The notes below the pieces were generated by a model, which was not told the origin of the DNA, did no database searches, and saw only the letters and a program-made list of their open reading frames with translations. Below, in pieces: positions 21,678 through 32,250 of a DNA stretch of 35,437 nucleotides. The translations under genes were made by a program, and so were the position numbers. Position 1 is the first letter of the stretch, and the number at the start of each line of letters is the position of its first letter. The DNA lies in assembly GCA_947625535.1 (NCBI GenBank), contig CANQOR010000014.1:1-35437 (forward strand), given 5' to 3'. This stretch comes from an uncultured Bacilli bacterium. Lineage in GTDB: Bacteria; Bacillota_I; Bacilli_A; RF39; UBA660.

Positions 21678-22190
21678 ATGAACCAAAAGGATATGCAAAT
21701 AATGATGGAATCTTATTATCGTTTCATAGGTATACCTAAGAAAAAACAACTAGAAATATCTCGTATACTTAGTTATTGTAAAGAAATAAGAAATACTGCT
21801 TATCCTTTAGCTAATTCTAAAGTAACAGAATTAGACGTAGTTGAATTTACCGCCCGTAAAGAAAAAGATATATATTATATAAATGGTTCCTTATCTTTAA
21901 ATGATAATGATTCTTATGAAAATCGTACTTTTGAAGCTTATATCTTTACAGATAATGAAACTGGTAAACAAAGAGTATATATGGATATAACTAGATTATG
22001 TCCTAAAGATGAACCTAAAATGATTCGTACCAGTGAAGAATTTATAGAAACCTCTAATACTGTAATAGGTGTTACTATTTATTCTAGTAGTGATACTATA
22101 GAATCTAAAACTTTCACTGAAGAATTTCCAAAACATGATACTGAAGATAATATCTTAGTTAAAAAAAATAAACAATTAAGAGCTCTTTAA
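21678..22190 (+). CDS. Hypothetical 170-residue protein co-transcribed with pgsA-like gene
   Basis: I do not recognise this family. No signal peptide or transmembrane helix is visible, so it is probably cytoplasmic. The N-terminal third is helical (KDMQIMMESYYRFIGIPKKKQLEISRILSYCKEIRNTAYP). The rest alternates strands such as DIYYINGSLSLND, TFEAYIFTDNETGKQRVYMDITRL and TVIGVTIYSSS, suggesting a compact alpha+beta domain. Ribosome site AAGGTGG with good spacing. It lies 13 bases after the pgsA-like gene and ends in a terminator whose loop contains its stop codon, so the two genes form an operon. A role with the lipid enzyme or its charged tail is speculation. Confidence 0.75.
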   Translation: MNQKDMQIMMESYYRFIGIPKKKQLEISRILSYCKEIRNTAYPLANSKVTELDVVEFTARKEKDIYYINGSLSLNDNDSYENRTFEAYIFTDNETGKQRVYMDITRLCPKDEPKMIRTSEEFIETSNTVIGVTIYSSSDTIESKTFTEEFPKHDTEDNILVKKNKQLRAL

Positions 22191-22207
22191 AACTTAATTG
22201 TTTTTTT
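22171..22207 (+). terminator. Terminator enclosing the stop codon at 22188-22190
   Basis: AACAATTAAG (22171-22180) pairs with CTTAATTGTT (22193-22202), followed by a T-tract. The next -10 box starts two bases later. Confidence 0.88.
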
Positions 22208-22208
22208 A

Positions 22209-22217
22209 TGCTATAAT
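22209..22217 (+). promoter_or_regulatory. Extended -10 promoter of the ATPase-like gene
   Basis: TG at 22209-22210 and TATAAT at 22212-22217, directly after the upstream terminator T-tract. No -35. Confidence 0.75.
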
Positions 22218-22233
22218 AAACATGGTGATATAA

Positions 22234-23472
22234 ATGAATTTACTACTTAATACAATCTTATCAATTATTATTTTAATAGTTTTATTTATTACCAAAATAA
22301 TTATAAAAAGAAAAAATAAAAATATATATAAAGACCTTTTATTTACTAAAATAAATAAATTAACTATCTTTTTATATATGATATCTTTTCTTCTTTTTGT
22401 AATTGTCTTCTTTATTAATTTATCTGATCCTTTAAAACCTTCTTTTTTAATAATAATATATAATGCTTTATCTCTTGCTATAATAACTCTTCCTCTTTCT
22501 TTAAATACTCTTTATTATCTATCTTTTAAAGACGAAGAAAAATATAGTCATACCACAACTATTGTTACTAACATCTTTGATAAAAAACTAATTAAAAAAT
22601 TTAATTTAGCAGGTATTAATGTCATTATATTAACTAAAAAACTAATAGATTCTAAAATAAAAACAATTGAAGAAAATGAACTAAATGAAAAATTATTAAA
22701 TAAAAACTTAATCATTAAAACAAATAAAAAAAATATCTTTAATAAATATAATAACCAAGATAAAATATATTATGAATTTGAAGATTTAAATAAAGCTTAT
22801 GAATTAATTAAACATAGTAGGGGAGTTCATGATAATTATATTCGTACTATAAAATATCTTATTACCACAACTATTCCTTTAATAATATGTTATTTTACTT
22901 TTATAATAGGTGGTTTTCCACCAATCTATAATTTATTATTAGTTACTTTATTTAAATTATATACTTTTATAACTAGTATGATAGTTTATCGTAAAATGCC
23001 ATACGATGTTGATATTATGACTCGTGAACCAAAACCCAAAGATATTGTAATAGGTTTTCAAGAGTTATTAATAACTATTATAGTAGCATTTGTTTATACT
23101 TTTGCTTTATCTATTCCATATACTTTTACTTTATCTCAAGGTAGCTCAGAAAATTTAGCTAATACCATCTTCTTTACTATCTTTATCTATGCTAATATCT
23201 TTATTACATGTTCATATCTAAGTGAAAATAATATTATTAAAAATATTTTTAAATCCCTTAAAAACATTTATTTAGTACTATATATTTTATTTAGTATAGG
23301 TCTTTCTTTAATCTTTATTTTTACTAAAATATTTACAACATGTAATATTGAAATTCAAAATTATTTAAGTTCTATTTTATTTGCATTAGCACCAATGCTT
23401 ATATATGAAATAACTAAATTTGCTCGATATACATCTATTAAAAGGAGACATAAAAATGTTAAAAATAACTAA
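22234..23472 (+). CDS. Catalytically dead P-type ATPase relative (membrane core only)
   Basis: This 412-residue integral membrane protein appears to be a P-type ATPase without its engine (inference). Landmarks run in the same order as in the true ATPase at 29635. A helix pair at about 43-98 sits where PEGLP would be, but reads LPLSL. AGINVIILTKK (126-136) aligns with the phosphorylation loop CTVIASDKTGT, with Asp replaced by Thr. SRGVHDNYIRTIKYL (195-209) matches the EGR-x-Y-x-NIRK-x-x-x-L start of helix 5. VDIMTREPKP (259-268) matches the DIM-x-R-x-P-R-x loop after helix 6. FTIFIYANIFITCSYLSENNIIKNIF (314-339) matches the loop between helices 8 and 9. No actuator domain, TGES, nucleotide-binding domain or GDGVNDAP remains; only about 60 residues separate the loop from helix 5. 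It overlaps the MYG1-like gene by 17 bases. Confidence 0.7.
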   Translation: MNLLLNTILSIIILIVLFITKIIIKRKNKNIYKDLLFTKINKLTIFLYMISFLLFVIVFFINLSDPLKPSFLIIIYNALSLAIITLPLSLNTLYYLSFKDEEKYSHTTTIVTNIFDKKLIKKFNLAGINVIILTKKLIDSKIKTIEENELNEKLLNKNLIIKTNKKNIFNKYNNQDKIYYEFEDLNKAYELIKHSRGVHDNYIRTIKYLITTTIPLIICYFTFIIGGFPPIYNLLLVTLFKLYTFITSMIVYRKMPYDVDIMTREPKPKDIVIGFQELLITIIVAFVYTFALSIPYTFTLSQGSSENLANTIFFTIFIYANIFITCSYLSENNIIKNIFKSLKNIYLVLYILFSIGLSLIFIFTKIFTTCNIEIQNYLSSILFALAPMLIYEITKFARYTSIKRRHKNVKNN

Positions 23473-24361
23473 AGATATAAAAAAAGCTAACTTAATTACT
23501 CATTCATCAACTTTTCATCCAGATGATGTCTTTTCAACTGTTTTATTAAGTAAAATAATTAAAGAACCCTTACTATGTCGTACGACAGATATAACAGGTT
23601 CTTCTAAAGAAGCTATTATTTATGATATTGGTTTTGGTCCATATGATCATCATGGCCCTGATGCTAAATGGCGTAATGAAAAAATAAAATATTCATCTTT
23701 TGGTTTACTATGGCAAACATATGGTTATGACTATTTAAAAATTATAACTGAAGATTATAAAGAACTATGGCAAGCTATAGATGAAAAACTAGTTATGCAA
23801 ATAGATGGGATAGATAATGGAGTCTTCCCTAATATTAATGCTCCCTATCATTTAACTGATTTAGATGCTATTATTGATTTATATAATAAAGCCTGGAATG
23901 AAGAAATAGATAACGATGATAACTTCCTAAAAGCTTTTACTACTGCTACAGAAATCTTTGATCGTTTAATAACTAAAGAACTAGCTAAAATAACAGCTAC
24001 TAAAAAAATAGAATTAAAAATTAATACAGTTAAAGATAATATATTAATATTAGATGAATACATGCCATATCAAGAAGCTATCTTTCATTCTAAAAATCCT
24101 CAAGCCAAACAAATAAAAGTTATTATCTTCCCATCTGATCGTGGTGGTTATAGTATTAAACCAATGACTATTAATGAAAATTCTAAAGAACTAATTTGTC
24201 ATTTTGATTCAAAATTTAATGGTCTTCATGACCAAGAACTAGCTAATATATCCCATATAAAAACAGCTCGTTTTGTTCATTCAAGTGGCTTTCTTGCTTG
24301 TACTGATACTTTAGATGATGCTATCTTAATGGCTAAAAATGCTCTTAATAATAAGGAATAA
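23456..24361 (+). CDS. MYG1-family metal-dependent hydrolase
   Basis: MYG1/UPF0160 proteins belong to the DHH-type phosphoesterase fold; the eukaryotic member has been reported as a 3'-5' exonuclease. This 301-residue protein shows the family's metal-site pattern: THSSTFHPDDVFSTVLL (15-31) and IYDIGFGPYDHHGPDA (55-70), followed by a helical part and a C-terminal domain with PSDRGGYSIKPM and FVHSSGFLA. I start at 23456 because AAAGGAG precedes that ATG at good distance; the in-frame ATG at 23420 lies 36 bases earlier inside the upstream gene. The 17-base overlap with the ATPase-like gene implies co-translation. The substrate in bacteria is not established; a nucleotide or oligonucleotide is likely from the fold. 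Confidence 0.88.
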   Translation: MLKITKDIKKANLITHSSTFHPDDVFSTVLLSKIIKEPLLCRTTDITGSSKEAIIYDIGFGPYDHHGPDAKWRNEKIKYSSFGLLWQTYGYDYLKIITEDYKELWQAIDEKLVMQIDGIDNGVFPNINAPYHLTDLDAIIDLYNKAWNEEIDNDDNFLKAFTTATEIFDRLITKELAKITATKKIELKINTVKDNILILDEYMPYQEAIFHSKNPQAKQIKVIIFPSDRGGYSIKPMTINENSKELICHFDSKFNGLHDQELANISHIKTARFVHSSGFLACTDTLDDAILMAKNALNNKE

Positions 24362-24376
24362 AATTCCTTTTTTTTG
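24353..24376 (+). terminator. Terminator containing the MYG1-like stop codon
   Basis: AAGGAAT (24353-24359) pairs with ATTCCTT (24363-24369) and runs into a long T-tract. The TAA at 24359-24361 spans stem and loop. Confidence 0.85.
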
Positions 24377-24420: not shown

Positions 24421-27400
24421 ATGAAACAAAATGAAACCATTAAATCTTTATTTAAAAATCTAGAATTAAATAAAAATAACTATGATATATCTATTGAATT
24501 AATATCTAAGATAAATGAAAAACTAGAACATAAAACATTTAACTTCACTAAAAATAATTTAAATATCTTAGGAACATATTTATATGTATGTAATAAATAT
24601 CAAAAAGTAGATTATTTAAATAAAGAACTAAATAAAGAAGAATTTATTAAATTACTAGATTTAACTAATATAAGTGGTTCTATGTTATTATCATTAACTT
24701 CTAATTGTGATAAACCACGTAAATTACTTATTTCTAATTCTAAAAAAATAAAAGATAGTATTTTAATAGGTGATGAATTATTATCTTTAGAAGAAATAAT
24801 AAATGATTTAACAAATGAAGAAATTACTATTTTAAGAAAAGATATTAATATTAATAATTTACTTATATCTAAAGGTTTAAGTTTTGATACATTAAAACCT
24901 ATTACTAGAAAACAAATTCTTAAAGATTTATCTATCTTAGGAGCTTATGATATAAAAACTATTAATGCTTTCTTAAGTACTTTAGATAATCTAGAAGACT
25001 TAGTAAAAGATAAATACTTCTTAGATTTATATTTATCTAAATTAACAGATGATTATTCATATACTTGTCCATTCTTAAATAATTTATCTTATAAAAATAT
25101 TGAATATATCTTAAAAAATTATCAAGAAGAACATATTATCTTACATTTACTAATTAATACAACAGGTCTTATTCAAAAAGAAATCTTAAAATATCCTAAT
25201 CTATCTAAGATTATCTTAAAACATAAAAATGAATCTTTATTATCTAAATTACCATGTAACTTATTAAAAAACTTCTTAGAAGAAACTAATAAACTATTTG
25301 ATTATCCTGTTATTAACTTTCTTTCTAATTTAGATGAAGATAAATTATCTCATCTTGCTTTAGTAAATCCTAATTACTATTCAGAATTATTAACTAAATT
25401 ATCTAAATCTACTATTAATTTAACTCCATATATTAGATCATTAACATCTTCAAATATTAATGATTTAAAAAAGAATCATTTAAAAGAACTAGATATAATA
25501 TCATTAACTAATCTTTTATTAGCAGATTCTAATTATAAAAAAGATATTCTAAAAAATAGAGAACTATGTACTAACCTTGTTAATAGTATTAACTTAAATA
25601 ATTACTATAAACTAACTAATTTCTTTTCATCAGGTCATTTTACAGATGAAGAAAAAGTCTTATTTATTAGTAATGTCTCTGAATTTAAAAATAATGATGT
25701 CTTAAATCGTTTACTAGAAAGTTTACCTTTATCACATCGTAAATTCTTCTATGATAATGAATTACTACGTACTAAAATATTAAATAATGAATCTTATCAA
25801 TTAGATGATTATGCTATTAGTTATTATTTAAATAATAGTGAAGAAATATCTTCTTTAAACCCATCTATTATTAAAGAATTACTTATTAAAACAGATTTAA
25901 CATTTAATGAAAAAGTCTTAAAAGAAGATATAATAGTTAAAAAATTATTAACTGCAAGTTTAGAAGATTATACTTATATAACAGATATTATCTTATCTAA
26001 AAAATCTTTAATAAAATACTTTAATACTAAAATAACTTATGAATATTATAATAAAGAATTAATATCTAATATCTTAAATAAATTATCTAATACCGAAAAA
26101 AGAACCTTTATAGAACCAGATTTAATTAAAAAAGTCTTAGGTGATAAATATTATAATATATATAAAAAATTATTAAATAATAATTCTTATTTACTTAATA
26201 CTTTAGATTTTCGTATCTTTGAAGATTATATTTTAAATATTAAACTATCTATCTTAGATTATATTACTAAGTATCCATCTATAGAAAATAGTTTAATAAC
26301 TATTAATAAGTATTATCCATTAACATCTAATTTAATTAATAACTTATATTACCAAACTAGTTCTTTAAGTCCTAAAACTTTATCTGATATCTTAGAACTA
26401 TTTGCTAATTCATGTCTTGCCCTAAATCGTAAGAAAGTAGGTAATTTACCTAAATTACTAAGTAATTTAAATCCTAAACATTTATCTTCTCTTACATCAT
26501 ATTTATTATATCAAATACCACGTTTCTATAAGAAAAATAATGAATTAGTACCAAGACCAATTATCTTAGATACTCCTAATACTTATGAAGATATAATTAA
26601 CTATGAAAATAACACAGTTACTAAACTTACTTCTTTAATTAATATAAGTCTTCCTAGTTATATAAAAGAATACTTTATTCAAAAACATTTTAAACTAACT
26701 AAAGAAGAAGCTAATATTATCTTAGATACATATAATTTAACTGATATAGATATTAATTTATATAACGAAGAATACTTATATTTAACTAATCTTCGTAAAA
26801 TAATGAATACTGATTATGAAACATTAAAAGAACTAGATCAAAACTATAAAACAATGACTATGTTAGAATCATTTACTATTATCGAAAAATTAAAAACTAT
26901 GTATGGTAAAATATATAATTATGAATTAAGAAGTAAAAATATTAATTATCCTGTATATGAACTACCTCATAAAAAATTAAATACTTATAAAAGTAAAGAT
27001 GAATTCTTATACTTAGTAAGTAATATTAACTTAGATACTTCTTCTAACTATTTAGAAACTTGGTATGATAACATTTCTAATAATGAAGGTAAACTAACTT
27101 GTAGTCTTATTTCTAATGAAAACTTAGTCTTTGATAAAGACTACTACTTAGGATTTAATGGTTTAGAAGATAATTCTATAATATCTATATCTCCATTATA
27201 TTTAATAAATAATAATGATAATACAAAAGAACTATATACAACACCATATAATTTATTAGATAATACTAGAGATTATAACAATACTATTATCTTAAACTCT
27301 TATATCGTAAGATCTAATTATAAAAATGCTAATATTCCATATATTGAACCAGATTATCTATTAGTAAATGCTAATCGCCTAAAAGATACTATTTACTTAG

Positions 27401-27834
27401 AACAAATTACTAAAATAAGTTTATCTTTTAAAAGTAAAAGAAACCCTCTAGGTTTACCAATAATTATCTTAGATCCATTAGCTATATCTCGTAAAGAAAT
27501 AACTAAAATAAATCGTCTTATGAAAGAATATACTACTTCATATGATCCTAATATATTAGCTAAATTATTAACTAGATTAGAAAATAATTATACAGCATAT
27601 AAATATACTAATGAATTAGAAGCTCTTAAATATGATATTTATATAATATTAAATACTATTATAAATCGTATTTGTTATACTAATTCAATTTATGAATTAA
27701 ATAGAATCGAAGAAATATTTGAATTAGAAGCTAAAAAATATCAATATTTATCTAATGAATTAAAGTTTAATTACTATTTAAATAGTTTAAAAAAGACGAT
27801 AGCAACTCGTAAAAATATCTTAAATAATTACTAA
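24421..27834 (+). CDS. Giant helical protein of 1137 residues, function unknown
   Basis: The largest gene in the window, intact and with native codon use; I do not recognise its family. No signal peptide or transmembrane helix is evident, so it is likely cytoplasmic. Residues about 1-860 are a succession of Leu/Asn/Lys/Ser-rich helices with recurring patterns such as 'LSNLNPKHLSSLTSYLL' and 'LLESLPLSHRKFF', suggesting an alpha-solenoid scaffold. A different C-terminal part (about 880-1137) contains IPYIEPDYLLVNANRL (972-987) and LGLPIIILDP (1010-1019), two hydrophobic strand motifs with acidic residues, then a helical tail. The strand pair could be the core of a small alpha/beta domain, but no catalytic family can be named. 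Own promoter; ribosome site AGGGTG. No terminator is visible after it. Confidence 0.8.
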   Translation: MKQNETIKSLFKNLELNKNNYDISIELISKINEKLEHKTFNFTKNNLNILGTYLYVCNKYQKVDYLNKELNKEEFIKLLDLTNISGSMLLSLTSNCDKPRKLLISNSKKIKDSILIGDELLSLEEIINDLTNEEITILRKDININNLLISKGLSFDTLKPITRKQILKDLSILGAYDIKTINAFLSTLDNLEDLVKDKYFLDLYLSKLTDDYSYTCPFLNNLSYKNIEYILKNYQEEHIILHLLINTTGLIQKEILKYPNLSKIILKHKNESLLSKLPCNLLKNFLEETNKLFDYPVINFLSNLDEDKLSHLALVNPNYYSELLTKLSKSTINLTPYIRSLTSSNINDLKKNHLKELDIISLTNLLLADSNYKKDILKNRELCTNLVNSINLNNYYKLTNFFSSGHFTDEEKVLFISNVSEFKNNDVLNRLLESLPLSHRKFFYDNELLRTKILNNESYQLDDYAISYYLNNSEEISSLNPSIIKELLIKTDLTFNEKVLKEDIIVKKLLTASLEDYTYITDIILSKKSLIKYFNTKITYEYYNKELISNILNKLSNTEKRTFIEPDLIKKVLGDKYYNIYKKLLNNNSYLLNTLDFRIFEDYILNIKLSILDYITKYPSIENSLITINKYYPLTSNLINNLYYQTSSLSPKTLSDILELFANSCLALNRKKVGNLPKLLSNLNPKHLSSLTSYLLYQIPRFYKKNNELVPRPIILDTPNTYEDIINYENNTVTKLTSLINISLPSYIKEYFIQKHFKLTKEEANIILDTYNLTDIDINLYNEEYLYLTNLRKIMNTDYETLKELDQNYKTMTMLESFTIIEKLKTMYGKIYNYELRSKNINYPVYELPHKKLNTYKSKDEFLYLVSNINLDTSSNYLETWYDNISNNEGKLTCSLISNENLVFDKDYYLGFNGLEDNSIISISPLYLINNNDNTKELYTTPYNLLDNTRDYNNTIILNSYIVRSNYKNANIPYIEPDYLLVNANRLKDTIYLEQITKISLSFKSKRNPLGLPIIILDPLAISRKEITKINRLMKEYTTSYDPNILAKLLTRLENNYTAYKYTNELEALKYDIYIILNTIINRICYTNSIYELNRIEEIFELEAKKYQYLSNELKFNYYLNSLKKTIATRKNILNNY

Positions 27835-29634: not shown

Positions 29635-32250
29635 ATGAATTATTATAGTAATAGTAGTGAAGAAGTTTTAAAAGAATTAAATTCTAATAAAAAAGGTTTA
29701 ACTAAAGAAACTGCTCAAAAAAATCTTTTACAATATGGTAAAAATGAATTGCCTGCTGCTAAAAAAGAAAGTTTATTAAAATTATTTTTCTCCCAATTTG
29801 CTAATCCCATTGAGATAATTTTAGTAGTTACAGTTATCTTATCTTTTTTAGCTCATGAAGTAGTGGACGCTATTGCTTTAATTATTATTATCTTAGTAGA
29901 TGTATTAATGGGTACTTTTGAAGAATGGCGTGCTCGTAAAGATGCCGAAAGTTTAATTAATATGATAAAAGTTACAACTCGTGTATTACGTGATAATGAA
30001 GAACAAGAAATACCTGCTAGTGAAGTAACTATAGGTGATATTATTTTACTTGAAAGTGGCGATAAAATAAGTGCTGATGCTCGTTTAATAGAATGCCATA
30101 ATTTTCAAGTTGATGAATCAGCTTTAACTGGTGAAAGTGTAGGGGTTATTAAAGATACAGACACCTTAGTTAAAGATACCCCTTTAGCTGAACGAATTAA
30201 TATGGTTTTTGCTGGTACATCCGTTATAACTGGTCGTGCTCACGCAGTGGTTACCTCTATTGGTACTCATACAGAAATAGGTCGCATTGCTGATAAAGTA
30301 ACAAATACTAAAGAAGAAAAATCCCCCTTAACAATTAGAACTGAAAAATTTTCTAAACAAATTAGTATTATTATCTTAATCGTTGCTTTAATTACAACTG
30401 TTATTTTAATAGTTAAAGGTTACCCAACTAATGAAATATTTTTATCTGTTATTGCTTTATCAGTTTCAGCTATGCCAGAAGGTCTTCCTTTAGCTTTAAC
30501 TATGGCTTTAACTATTGCTTCCAAACGTATGGCTAAGAAAAATGTTATTGTCAAAAAACTAAATGCTGTTGAATCACTAGGTAGTTGTACAGTAATTGCT
30601 TCTGATAAAACTGGAACCTTAACTGTTAATGAACAAACAGCTAAAGAAATAGTTCTACCTGATGGTAGTACTTATGAAATTACTGGTACGGGATATAATG
30701 ACGATGGTAAAGTTAAACCCTTAAATAATGCCGACTTAAAAAAAGCTTCTGCCATTGCTTTACTAGGTGCTTTAAATAATGAAGCTCACTTAGAAAAAAA
30801 AGGAGATACTTGGGAATCATTTGGTGATTCCATTGATATAGCTTTTTTAAGTCTAGCAGCTAAAATGCATATTGAAGAAATCCCCGAAGTAATAGAAAGT
30901 ATTCCTTATGAATCAGAAAATCAATACTCAGCAGTCTTCTATAAAAAGAATAATGAAACATATTGTACTGTTAAAGGTTCATTAGAAAAAGTAATGACTT
31001 TCTCTGAAGAAAATCGTAAATTCTTTGAACAAAATGAAGAACTTACTGCCAAAGGTTATCGTGTTATTGCTTTAGCTGATGGTAAAGTTTCTGGTACTAA
31101 AAAAGAAGATATTAAAAAATTAAAATTTATGGGTATGGTTGCTTTCATTGATCCAATTAGAACGGAAGTTAAAGATTCTATTAAGGAATGTAAAAATGCT
31201 GGTATTAAAGTTATAATGATTACTGGTGATCACCCTCTAACAGCTTATGCTATTGCTAAAGATTTAGGTTTATGTAAAAATGCCTCCGAAGTAGCAACAG
31301 GTAAAGATGTTGAAAGATATCGTTTAAAAAGTGAAGAAGAATTTGATGAGTTTGTTAGTCAAATAAAAGTTTTCTCACGTGTTACCCCAATGGATAAGTT
31401 AGATATCGTTAATTCCCTTAAACGTCGCGGTGAGTTTGTTGCTGTAACTGGTGATGGTGTTAATGATGCCCCAGCTATTAAAGCTGCTAATATTGGTATT
31501 GCTATGGGTAGTGGTACTGATGTTGCTAAAGAAACAGCTTCTATGATTGTTGCTGATGATAACTTTACATCTATCGTTTCTGGTGTTAAAGAAGGTCGTA
31601 CTGCTTATAGTAACATTCGTAAAATAACTTTATTCTTACTAAGTTGTGGTTTTGCTGAAGTATGCTTTTTCTTATTATCAATTGCTTTTGGTTATGATAT
31701 TCCTTTACTAGCTATTCAATTACTATGGTTAAATATTGTTACTGATGGCTTACAAGATATCTCATTATCATTTGAAAAAACTGAAAAATCGATTATGGAA
31801 GAAAAACCTCGTGATACTAAAGAATCATTATTCTCTAAAGACTTAATGGTTGAAGTAGGTATCTTAGGCATTACAATAAGTGTTATTATCTTTATTACTT
31901 GGAAACTTCTAATAGATAATGGAACAGATATTATAACATCTCGTGCTATTGTTATGATGTTAATGGTTTTCATTCAAAATATTAATGTTTTAAACTGTCG
32001 TAGTGAAAAACGTTCAGTCTTTAAAAAAGCTCTTTTAGATAACCCATTAGTTATAATAACTGTTGTTGGTTCTATTCTTTTACAAATAATTATGTCTGAG
32101 ATACCAATAACTTCTAAATTCTTAAAAGTAACTCCATTACCATCAATGACTATTCTAAAACTTTTATTAATATCATTAATCATAATTGTTGTATTTGAAA
32201 TATATAAATATATTTATAATTTAGGGAGAGAAGATAATGGAAACAAATAA
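29635..32250 (+). CDS. P2-type cation ATPase, probable Mn/Ca exporter
   Basis: A complete 871-residue P-type ATPase that couples ATP hydrolysis to export of a divalent cation. Seen: N-terminal cation-ATPase segment (5-60), actuator TGES (165-168), helix 4 PEGLP (281-285), phosphorylated Asp324 in DKTGTLT, nucleotide domain with KGSLEK, TGDHP (530-534) and GDGVNDAP (606-613). Ion-site residues of the SERCA/PMCA/LMCA1 group are kept: Glu675 in helix 5 and Asn700, Thr703 and Asp704 in helix 6 (LWLNIVTDG). Those residues fit Ca2+ or Mn2+. The Mn-riboswitch-like leader and the metal permease next door favour Mn2+, by inference. The following gene overlaps its end by 14 bases. A degraded relative is encoded at 22234. 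Confidence 0.95.
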   Translation: MNYYSNSSEEVLKELNSNKKGLTKETAQKNLLQYGKNELPAAKKESLLKLFFSQFANPIEIILVVTVILSFLAHEVVDAIALIIIILVDVLMGTFEEWRARKDAESLINMIKVTTRVLRDNEEQEIPASEVTIGDIILLESGDKISADARLIECHNFQVDESALTGESVGVIKDTDTLVKDTPLAERINMVFAGTSVITGRAHAVVTSIGTHTEIGRIADKVTNTKEEKSPLTIRTEKFSKQISIIILIVALITTVILIVKGYPTNEIFLSVIALSVSAMPEGLPLALTMALTIASKRMAKKNVIVKKLNAVESLGSCTVIASDKTGTLTVNEQTAKEIVLPDGSTYEITGTGYNDDGKVKPLNNADLKKASAIALLGALNNEAHLEKKGDTWESFGDSIDIAFLSLAAKMHIEEIPEVIESIPYESENQYSAVFYKKNNETYCTVKGSLEKVMTFSEENRKFFEQNEELTAKGYRVIALADGKVSGTKKEDIKKLKFMGMVAFIDPIRTEVKDSIKECKNAGIKVIMITGDHPLTAYAIAKDLGLCKNASEVATGKDVERYRLKSEEEFDEFVSQIKVFSRVTPMDKLDIVNSLKRRGEFVAVTGDGVNDAPAIKAANIGIAMGSGTDVAKETASMIVADDNFTSIVSGVKEGRTAYSNIRKITLFLLSCGFAEVCFFLLSIAFGYDIPLLAIQLLWLNIVTDGLQDISLSFEKTEKSIMEEKPRDTKESLFSKDLMVEVGILGITISVIIFITWKLLIDNGTDIITSRAIVMMLMVFIQNINVLNCRSEKRSVFKKALLDNPLVIITVVGSILLQIIMSEIPITSKFLKVTPLPSMTILKLLLISLIIIVVFEIYKYIYNLGREDNGNK

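Follow-up and report, generated by a model that had tools for sequence, protein, structure and literature searches.

P-type ATPases are defined by a phosphorylated aspartate. The MYG1 exonuclease is found in all kinds of life, and its role in bacteria is poorly known. No description of a P-type ATPase reduced to its M domain was found in the openly available literature, which covers few subscription journals, and no pump-derived membrane partner of MYG1 in the literature searched. In yeast and human, MYG1 proteins are 3'-5' RNA exonucleases, with mitochondria and nucleus as their sites of action (PMC10089162, PMC11167044).

Here we describe a locus where a MYG1 gene follows the remains of a pump, a “pseudo-pump”. 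The window, that is, the whole stretch of DNA analysed, is 35,437 nucleotides long, and the features of the pair are as follows.

22171-22207, forward strand: terminator-like hairpin (AACAATTAAG...CTTAATTGTT) with a T-run, at the end of the upstream unit (sequence)
22209-22217, forward strand: extended -10 promoter element TGCTATAAT, 25 nt 5' of the ATG (conserved position)
22234-23472, forward strand: pseudo-pump, a catalytically dead P2-type ATPase remnant of 412 aa (ORF, homology searches, alignment, tree)
22249-22314, forward strand: first transmembrane (TM) helix, residues 6-27, in the M2 slot; M1 and actuator domain absent (hydropathy; the next element aligns to M3)
22330-22521, forward strand: M3-M4, residues 33-96, with PEELP/PEGLP changed to PLSL (HMM match, E~2e-6; motif table)
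22546-22818, forward strand: shrunken, inactivated P-domain remnant, residues 105-195, with TGD changed to TKK and GDGxND lost (alignments, predicted beta-alpha-beta fold)
22819-23037, forward strand: stalk and M5-M6, residues 196-268, with R196xxxxN201 and DIMTREPKP; LELIIDP changed to LFKLYTF (phmmer, alignments)
23038-23433, forward strand: M7-M10, residues 269-400, with conserved N321, N337, N376, K395 and R398 (alignments; PF00689 in orthologues)
23456-23472, forward strand: 17-nt overlap of the pseudo-pump ORF and MYG1; the ribosome-binding site AAAGGAG lies inside the pseudo-pump ORF (sequence)
23456-24361, forward strand: MYG1-family (UPF0160) hydrolase, 301 aa, with DHH and FHPDD motifs (PF03690, human MYG1 structures)
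24353-24376, forward strand: terminator-like AAGGAAT-AAA-ATTCCTT with T8, closing the two-gene unit (sequence)

Homology searches show that the 412-residue ORF descends from a P2-type ATPase, the ancestry that the preliminary description had given to its membrane core. Taken alone, the protein sequence from the window matches PDB entries of P2-type ATPases at M5-M6 (phmmer, best E=1.4e-3) and has no match in Pfam or NCBIfam; Pfam matches come only with the orthologues and their profile. This profile, like the conservation calls, is based on an alignment of 13 orthologues of the genus, and in the PDB it finds Na,K-ATPase, H,K-ATPase, SERCA, SPCA and LMCA1 (best E=1.8e-10). The Pfam domain Cation_ATPase_C (PF00689) is found in 10 of the 13 orthologues, with a best E of 3.5e-15. 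Residues 183-397 align with M5-M10 of eight full-length ATPases from the same bacterial family (hhalign, E=3e-19), the profile alignment being weaker against PEGLP-type pumps (1.5e-11). Residues 33-88 match M3-M4 when an HMM of residues 1-104 is compared with full-length ATPases (E~2e-6). Homology to the P-type ATPase M domain is significant over M3-M10.

The structure comparison that had been proposed as a check points the same way. The AlphaFold model of the full length, with two sequences in the input, is weak (pLDDT 49); all of the 50 VIA matches listed for it are P-type ATPases (Z 10-12), and pumps head the Foldseek list. A different membrane family was rejected on these results. In the tree, the 13 copies form one clade (94/85), placed beside pumps with PEE[ILF]P. 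That the remnant arose by recent tandem duplication of the intact 29635 pump was also considered and rejected: the two have no usable pairwise similarity, and that pump falls in another clade.

As for the membrane helices, three landmarks named in the preliminary description proved right, namely LPLSL at the PEGLP position, R-x4-N before M5 and DIMTREPKP after M6; the alignment of orthologues shows no variation at R196, N201, D260, I261, R264 or P266. There are 11 invariant residues in the orthologues, at the expected structural positions. Two other landmarks did not hold. The stretch VIILTKK, taken for VIASDKT, aligns instead with the TGD motif (AGIxVIMITGD), and the Cys-x-x-x-Ser/Glu loop between helices 8 and 9 has a cysteine that is not conserved among orthologues, and is therefore a chance likeness. 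Order and charge suggest that the first helix stands where M2 would be, with M1 absent or replaced, so the N-terminus should face outside.

The catalytic elements are missing, as had been claimed for the phosphorylated Asp, the actuator and the nucleotide-binding domain. The DKTGT phosphorylation motif is absent from the window protein and from 13/13 orthologues, and neither TGES, FARxxP, GDGxND nor the N domain was found in the merged alignment. About 15 residues are left between helix 1 and M3, where a TGES-type actuator domain would be, and TGD is replaced by TKK, TKE or SSQ across orthologues. Furthermore, the acidic ion-site residues of M4 and M6 are lost (PEELP to PLSL, LELIIDP to LFKLYTF). 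Their replacements are hydrophobic, Ser/Thr or Lys, with a Lys in mid-M6 of most long forms.

In these long forms, the linker at residues 105-195 resembles the back half of a P domain, squeezed to around 95 cytosolic residues, which corrects the earlier figure of about 60. Independent comparisons align its AGINVIILTKK with AGIxVIMITGD. TIVTN stands at the likely nucleophile position, where one orthologue has D, though without KTGT; two alignments disagree on this strand, which may be either the DKTG strand or the DPPR strand. The linker reaches an AF2 pLDDT of 66-82 and, folded alone, gives a small alpha-beta unit (pLDDT 66). By prediction, the P remnant of about 95 residues may be a small HAD/Rossmann fold. 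A VIA search with a model of the 102-residue cytosolic linker ranks HAD phosphatases and the P domains of P-type ATPases highest, at moderate Z values of 5-6.3, and Foldseek gives no match below E 0.2. In five orthologues this P-domain piece is even shorter. The picture of a membrane core without catalysis is thus right about catalysis, and wrong about a bare core, because the long forms retain an inactivated piece of the P domain.

In the window, the pair is a two-gene unit with its own TGNTATAAT promoter, set between terminator-like hairpins. The true start of MYG1 is the ATG at 23456, which makes the 17-base overlap noted earlier exact. The hairpin at 22171-22207 was not listed by a generic terminator scan because its stem is too poor in G+C, and a comparable hairpin or T-run lies upstream of the remnant in most orthologues. 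The TGNTATAAT element is found 24-28 nt upstream of the remnant start in 9 of 13 orthologues. A generic single-sequence scan for sigma-70 promoters gave no excess over shuffles, so the support for this promoter is its conserved position. A terminator-like hairpin similar to the one at 24353-24376 is seen 3' of MYG1 in most orthologues with downstream sequence to inspect. The remnant and MYG1 are probably coupled in part in translation.

Upstream of the pair, in the window and in most of the genus, lies a 170-aa gene with a KEIRDTAYPL motif (21678-22190), with no Pfam family at the cut-off. The gene usually found just 3' of MYG1 encodes 1137 aa (24421-27834); it has no Pfam match and is fast evolving, with 25-53% identity. 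An intact PMR1/LMCA1-like P-type ATPase of 871 aa (29635-32250) is encoded 6 kb downstream, and several relatives also keep it close by. Its gene is overlapped by 14 nt by a TM198-like gene that starts at 32237.

An intact copy of the remnant is present in 13 of the 15 genomes of the genus. For the remnant, dN/dS comes to 0.23-0.27 in close pairs and to 0.45 between the window and G009; MYG1 gives 0.10-0.25 in the pairs with usable dS. Identity to the window is 29-53% for the remnant and 55-75% for MYG1, which means that the remnant evolves faster. The remnant has been retained by selection in one genus of uncultured gut-type Bacilli. A fresh pseudogene or a frameshift artefact was rejected, given that 13 orthologues are intact and dN/dS stays under 0.5; the earlier view of a retained protein is borne out by these, by the conserved promoter and by the conserved MYG1 neighbour. 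Sampling 291 genomes of the family, 385 of the order and 395 of the class gave no further full truncated member, with a 409-aa frame in G621 left out.

The two remaining genomes of the genus differ. In G005, which is 65% complete, neither remnant nor MYG1 was found. G007 keeps MYG1 and the upstream 170-aa gene (L142:613-2120) without the remnant; only about 115 nt separate the two genes, and the remnant was therefore lost there. The locus is a natural deletion, usable as a control.

In terms of gene order, the remnant lies directly upstream of MYG1 in 13/13 genomes, from a 35-nt overlap to a 2-nt gap, and the adjacency persists through losses and insertions of other neighbours (e.g. L126-L129, L131). 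The search for homologues in related genomes, suggested with the first reading, thus returned both the missing Asp motif and the MYG1 neighbour in all 13. The MYG1 of the window is intact (PF03690, E=1.9e-50, residues 13-297), with DHH and FHPDD present, and matches human MYG1 structures at E=1e-11. The remnant was never seen without MYG1, while MYG1 was seen without the remnant. The proposed tie between the two genes is therefore conserved but not obligate, and the case of G007 means that MYG1 does not always need the remnant.

Elsewhere in the family, 14 MYG1 loci from other genera all lack a remnant beside them, and an ancestral pairing of MYG1 with the pump outside the genus was rejected. 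At one of them (L054:1498-3852) a full-length P-type ATPase gene divergently adjoins MYG1, perhaps by chance, as this is one locus in 14.

The preliminary description supposed a new role for the protein, as a channel, a sensor or an assembly partner, and it may have such a role. We put the probability at roughly 0.4 that the catalytically dead pseudo-pump is kept as a membrane partner, either anchor or sensor, of the MYG1 exonuclease. An ancestral P2-type ATPase has kept M3-M10 and a reduced P piece (an M2-M10 membrane domain); its phosphorylation and nucleotide binding are gone, as are the actuator domain and the acidic ion site. The remnant is encoded ahead of the MYG1-family DHH exonuclease in the two-gene unit, and its nine-helix shell would sit in the membrane without pumping. 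The cytosolic elements, namely the P-domain platform, R196/N201, D260-I-x-x-R-x-P and the C-terminal K-x-A-R, would bind MYG1. The nuclease would in this way be held at the membrane, or a membrane or ion signal would be relayed to it. Somewhat more tentatively, a P-type ATPase may have become a membrane receptor or anchor that transports nothing and controls an RNA exonuclease, comparable to pseudokinases.

The partner reading draws on the ancestry, the catalytic loss, the retention, the MYG1 adjacency in 13/13, the promoter and the intact MYG1. Against it stand the MYG1 of G007 without a remnant, the partnerless MYG1 elsewhere in the family and the faster evolution of the remnant; the further shortening of the P piece in five genomes may also be ongoing erosion. 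The same observations bear on an unlikely alternative, an eroding relic that serves as a translated leader, where MYG1, no longer having a promoter of its own, relies on transcription and translation passing through the remnant, so that the frame is kept and the protein little used. Stepwise shortening across the genus, with complete loss in G007, keeps this reading alive, and it would also account for the overlap with MYG1, the promoter found only before the remnant and the faster change of the remnant relative to MYG1. However, a leader would have no need of a conserved membrane protein with nine helices, and dN/dS of 0.23-0.45, the 11 invariant residues noted above and some 400 intact codons in 13 AT-rich genomes all speak against it.

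Other functions would leave MYG1 aside. A CDP-alcohol phosphatidyltransferase, encoded two genes upstream in the window and also in several relatives, could suggest a lipid or envelope role unrelated to MYG1; we consider it rather unlikely, as several relatives lack or have displaced either this gene or the 170-aa gene in between, and MYG1 is adjacent in 13/13. An ungated M domain might act as a passive channel or uncoupled carrier that conducts an ion or a small solute, for which the Na,K-ATPase, conducting when opened by palytoxin, is an analogy. M3-M10 is kept nearly entire, with conserved membrane residues that include Asn in M8 and near M10, but the acidic M4/M6 ion-site residues are replaced (the long forms have a Lys in mid-M6), there is no M1 and the MYG1 link is left unexplained, so a channel is improbable. 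Finally, the remnant could act on a full-length P-type ATPase as a regulatory or dominant partner, the PMR1-like pump at 29635-32250 being one candidate, since a full-length P2 ATPase lies 6-10 kb off in the window and several relatives. This is also improbable: the nearest full-length relatives are of a different type (PEE[ILF]P), placed elsewhere in the tree, no full-length pump lies beside the remnant in G013, G008 and G003, and G002 keeps the remnant with no full-length P-type ATPase detected by an actuator-domain search of this 85%-complete genome, which speaks against such a role. The adjacency pattern fits an accessory of MYG1 better than a pump partner or a channel.

A lineage without catalytic and ion-site residues, with its membrane domain under purifying selection, shows that the scaffold of a pump can be reused, and the fixed pairing with MYG1 gives a concrete partner hypothesis for the pseudo-pump.

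Among known systems, the window MYG1 compares directly with MYG1 exonuclease (PF03690, DHH-type), with a full-length match and both FHPDD and DHH. The linker of the remnant, as predicted, may share the fold of HAD phosphatases (YrbI/KdsC) and P-type ATPase P domains, with moderate VIA Z of 5-6.3; in contrast to the HAD superfamily, the nucleophile Asp and the other HAD motifs are missing. Two 206-aa proteins of another genus (L047:1450-2070 and L050:1492-2109) contain only Cation_ATPase_C (PF00689, E=2.8e-11 and 3.4e-10). Like the remnant, they are M5-M10-type fragments without catalytic domains, and they group with the pseudo-pumps (100/99), a grouping that needs caution because of long branches. 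They differ in having no M2-M4, no P remnant and no MYG1 neighbour, with no MYG1 found in their genomes, and are possibly a second, more extreme pump remnant.

The nearest pumps in the tree are of P2A type (PMR1/SPCA-, LMCA1-like), especially a bacterial form of 825-845 aa with IPEE[ILF]P in M4. Compared with these pumps of about 830 residues, the remnant has 412, and is without the actuator, DKTGT, N domain, TGD, GDGxND, ion-site acids and M1. It shares with them the order of M3-M10, the helix boundaries, R-x4-N before M5 and DIMxRxP after M6, together with the M8 “NT-x-x-x-N” and a C-terminal E-x-x-K.
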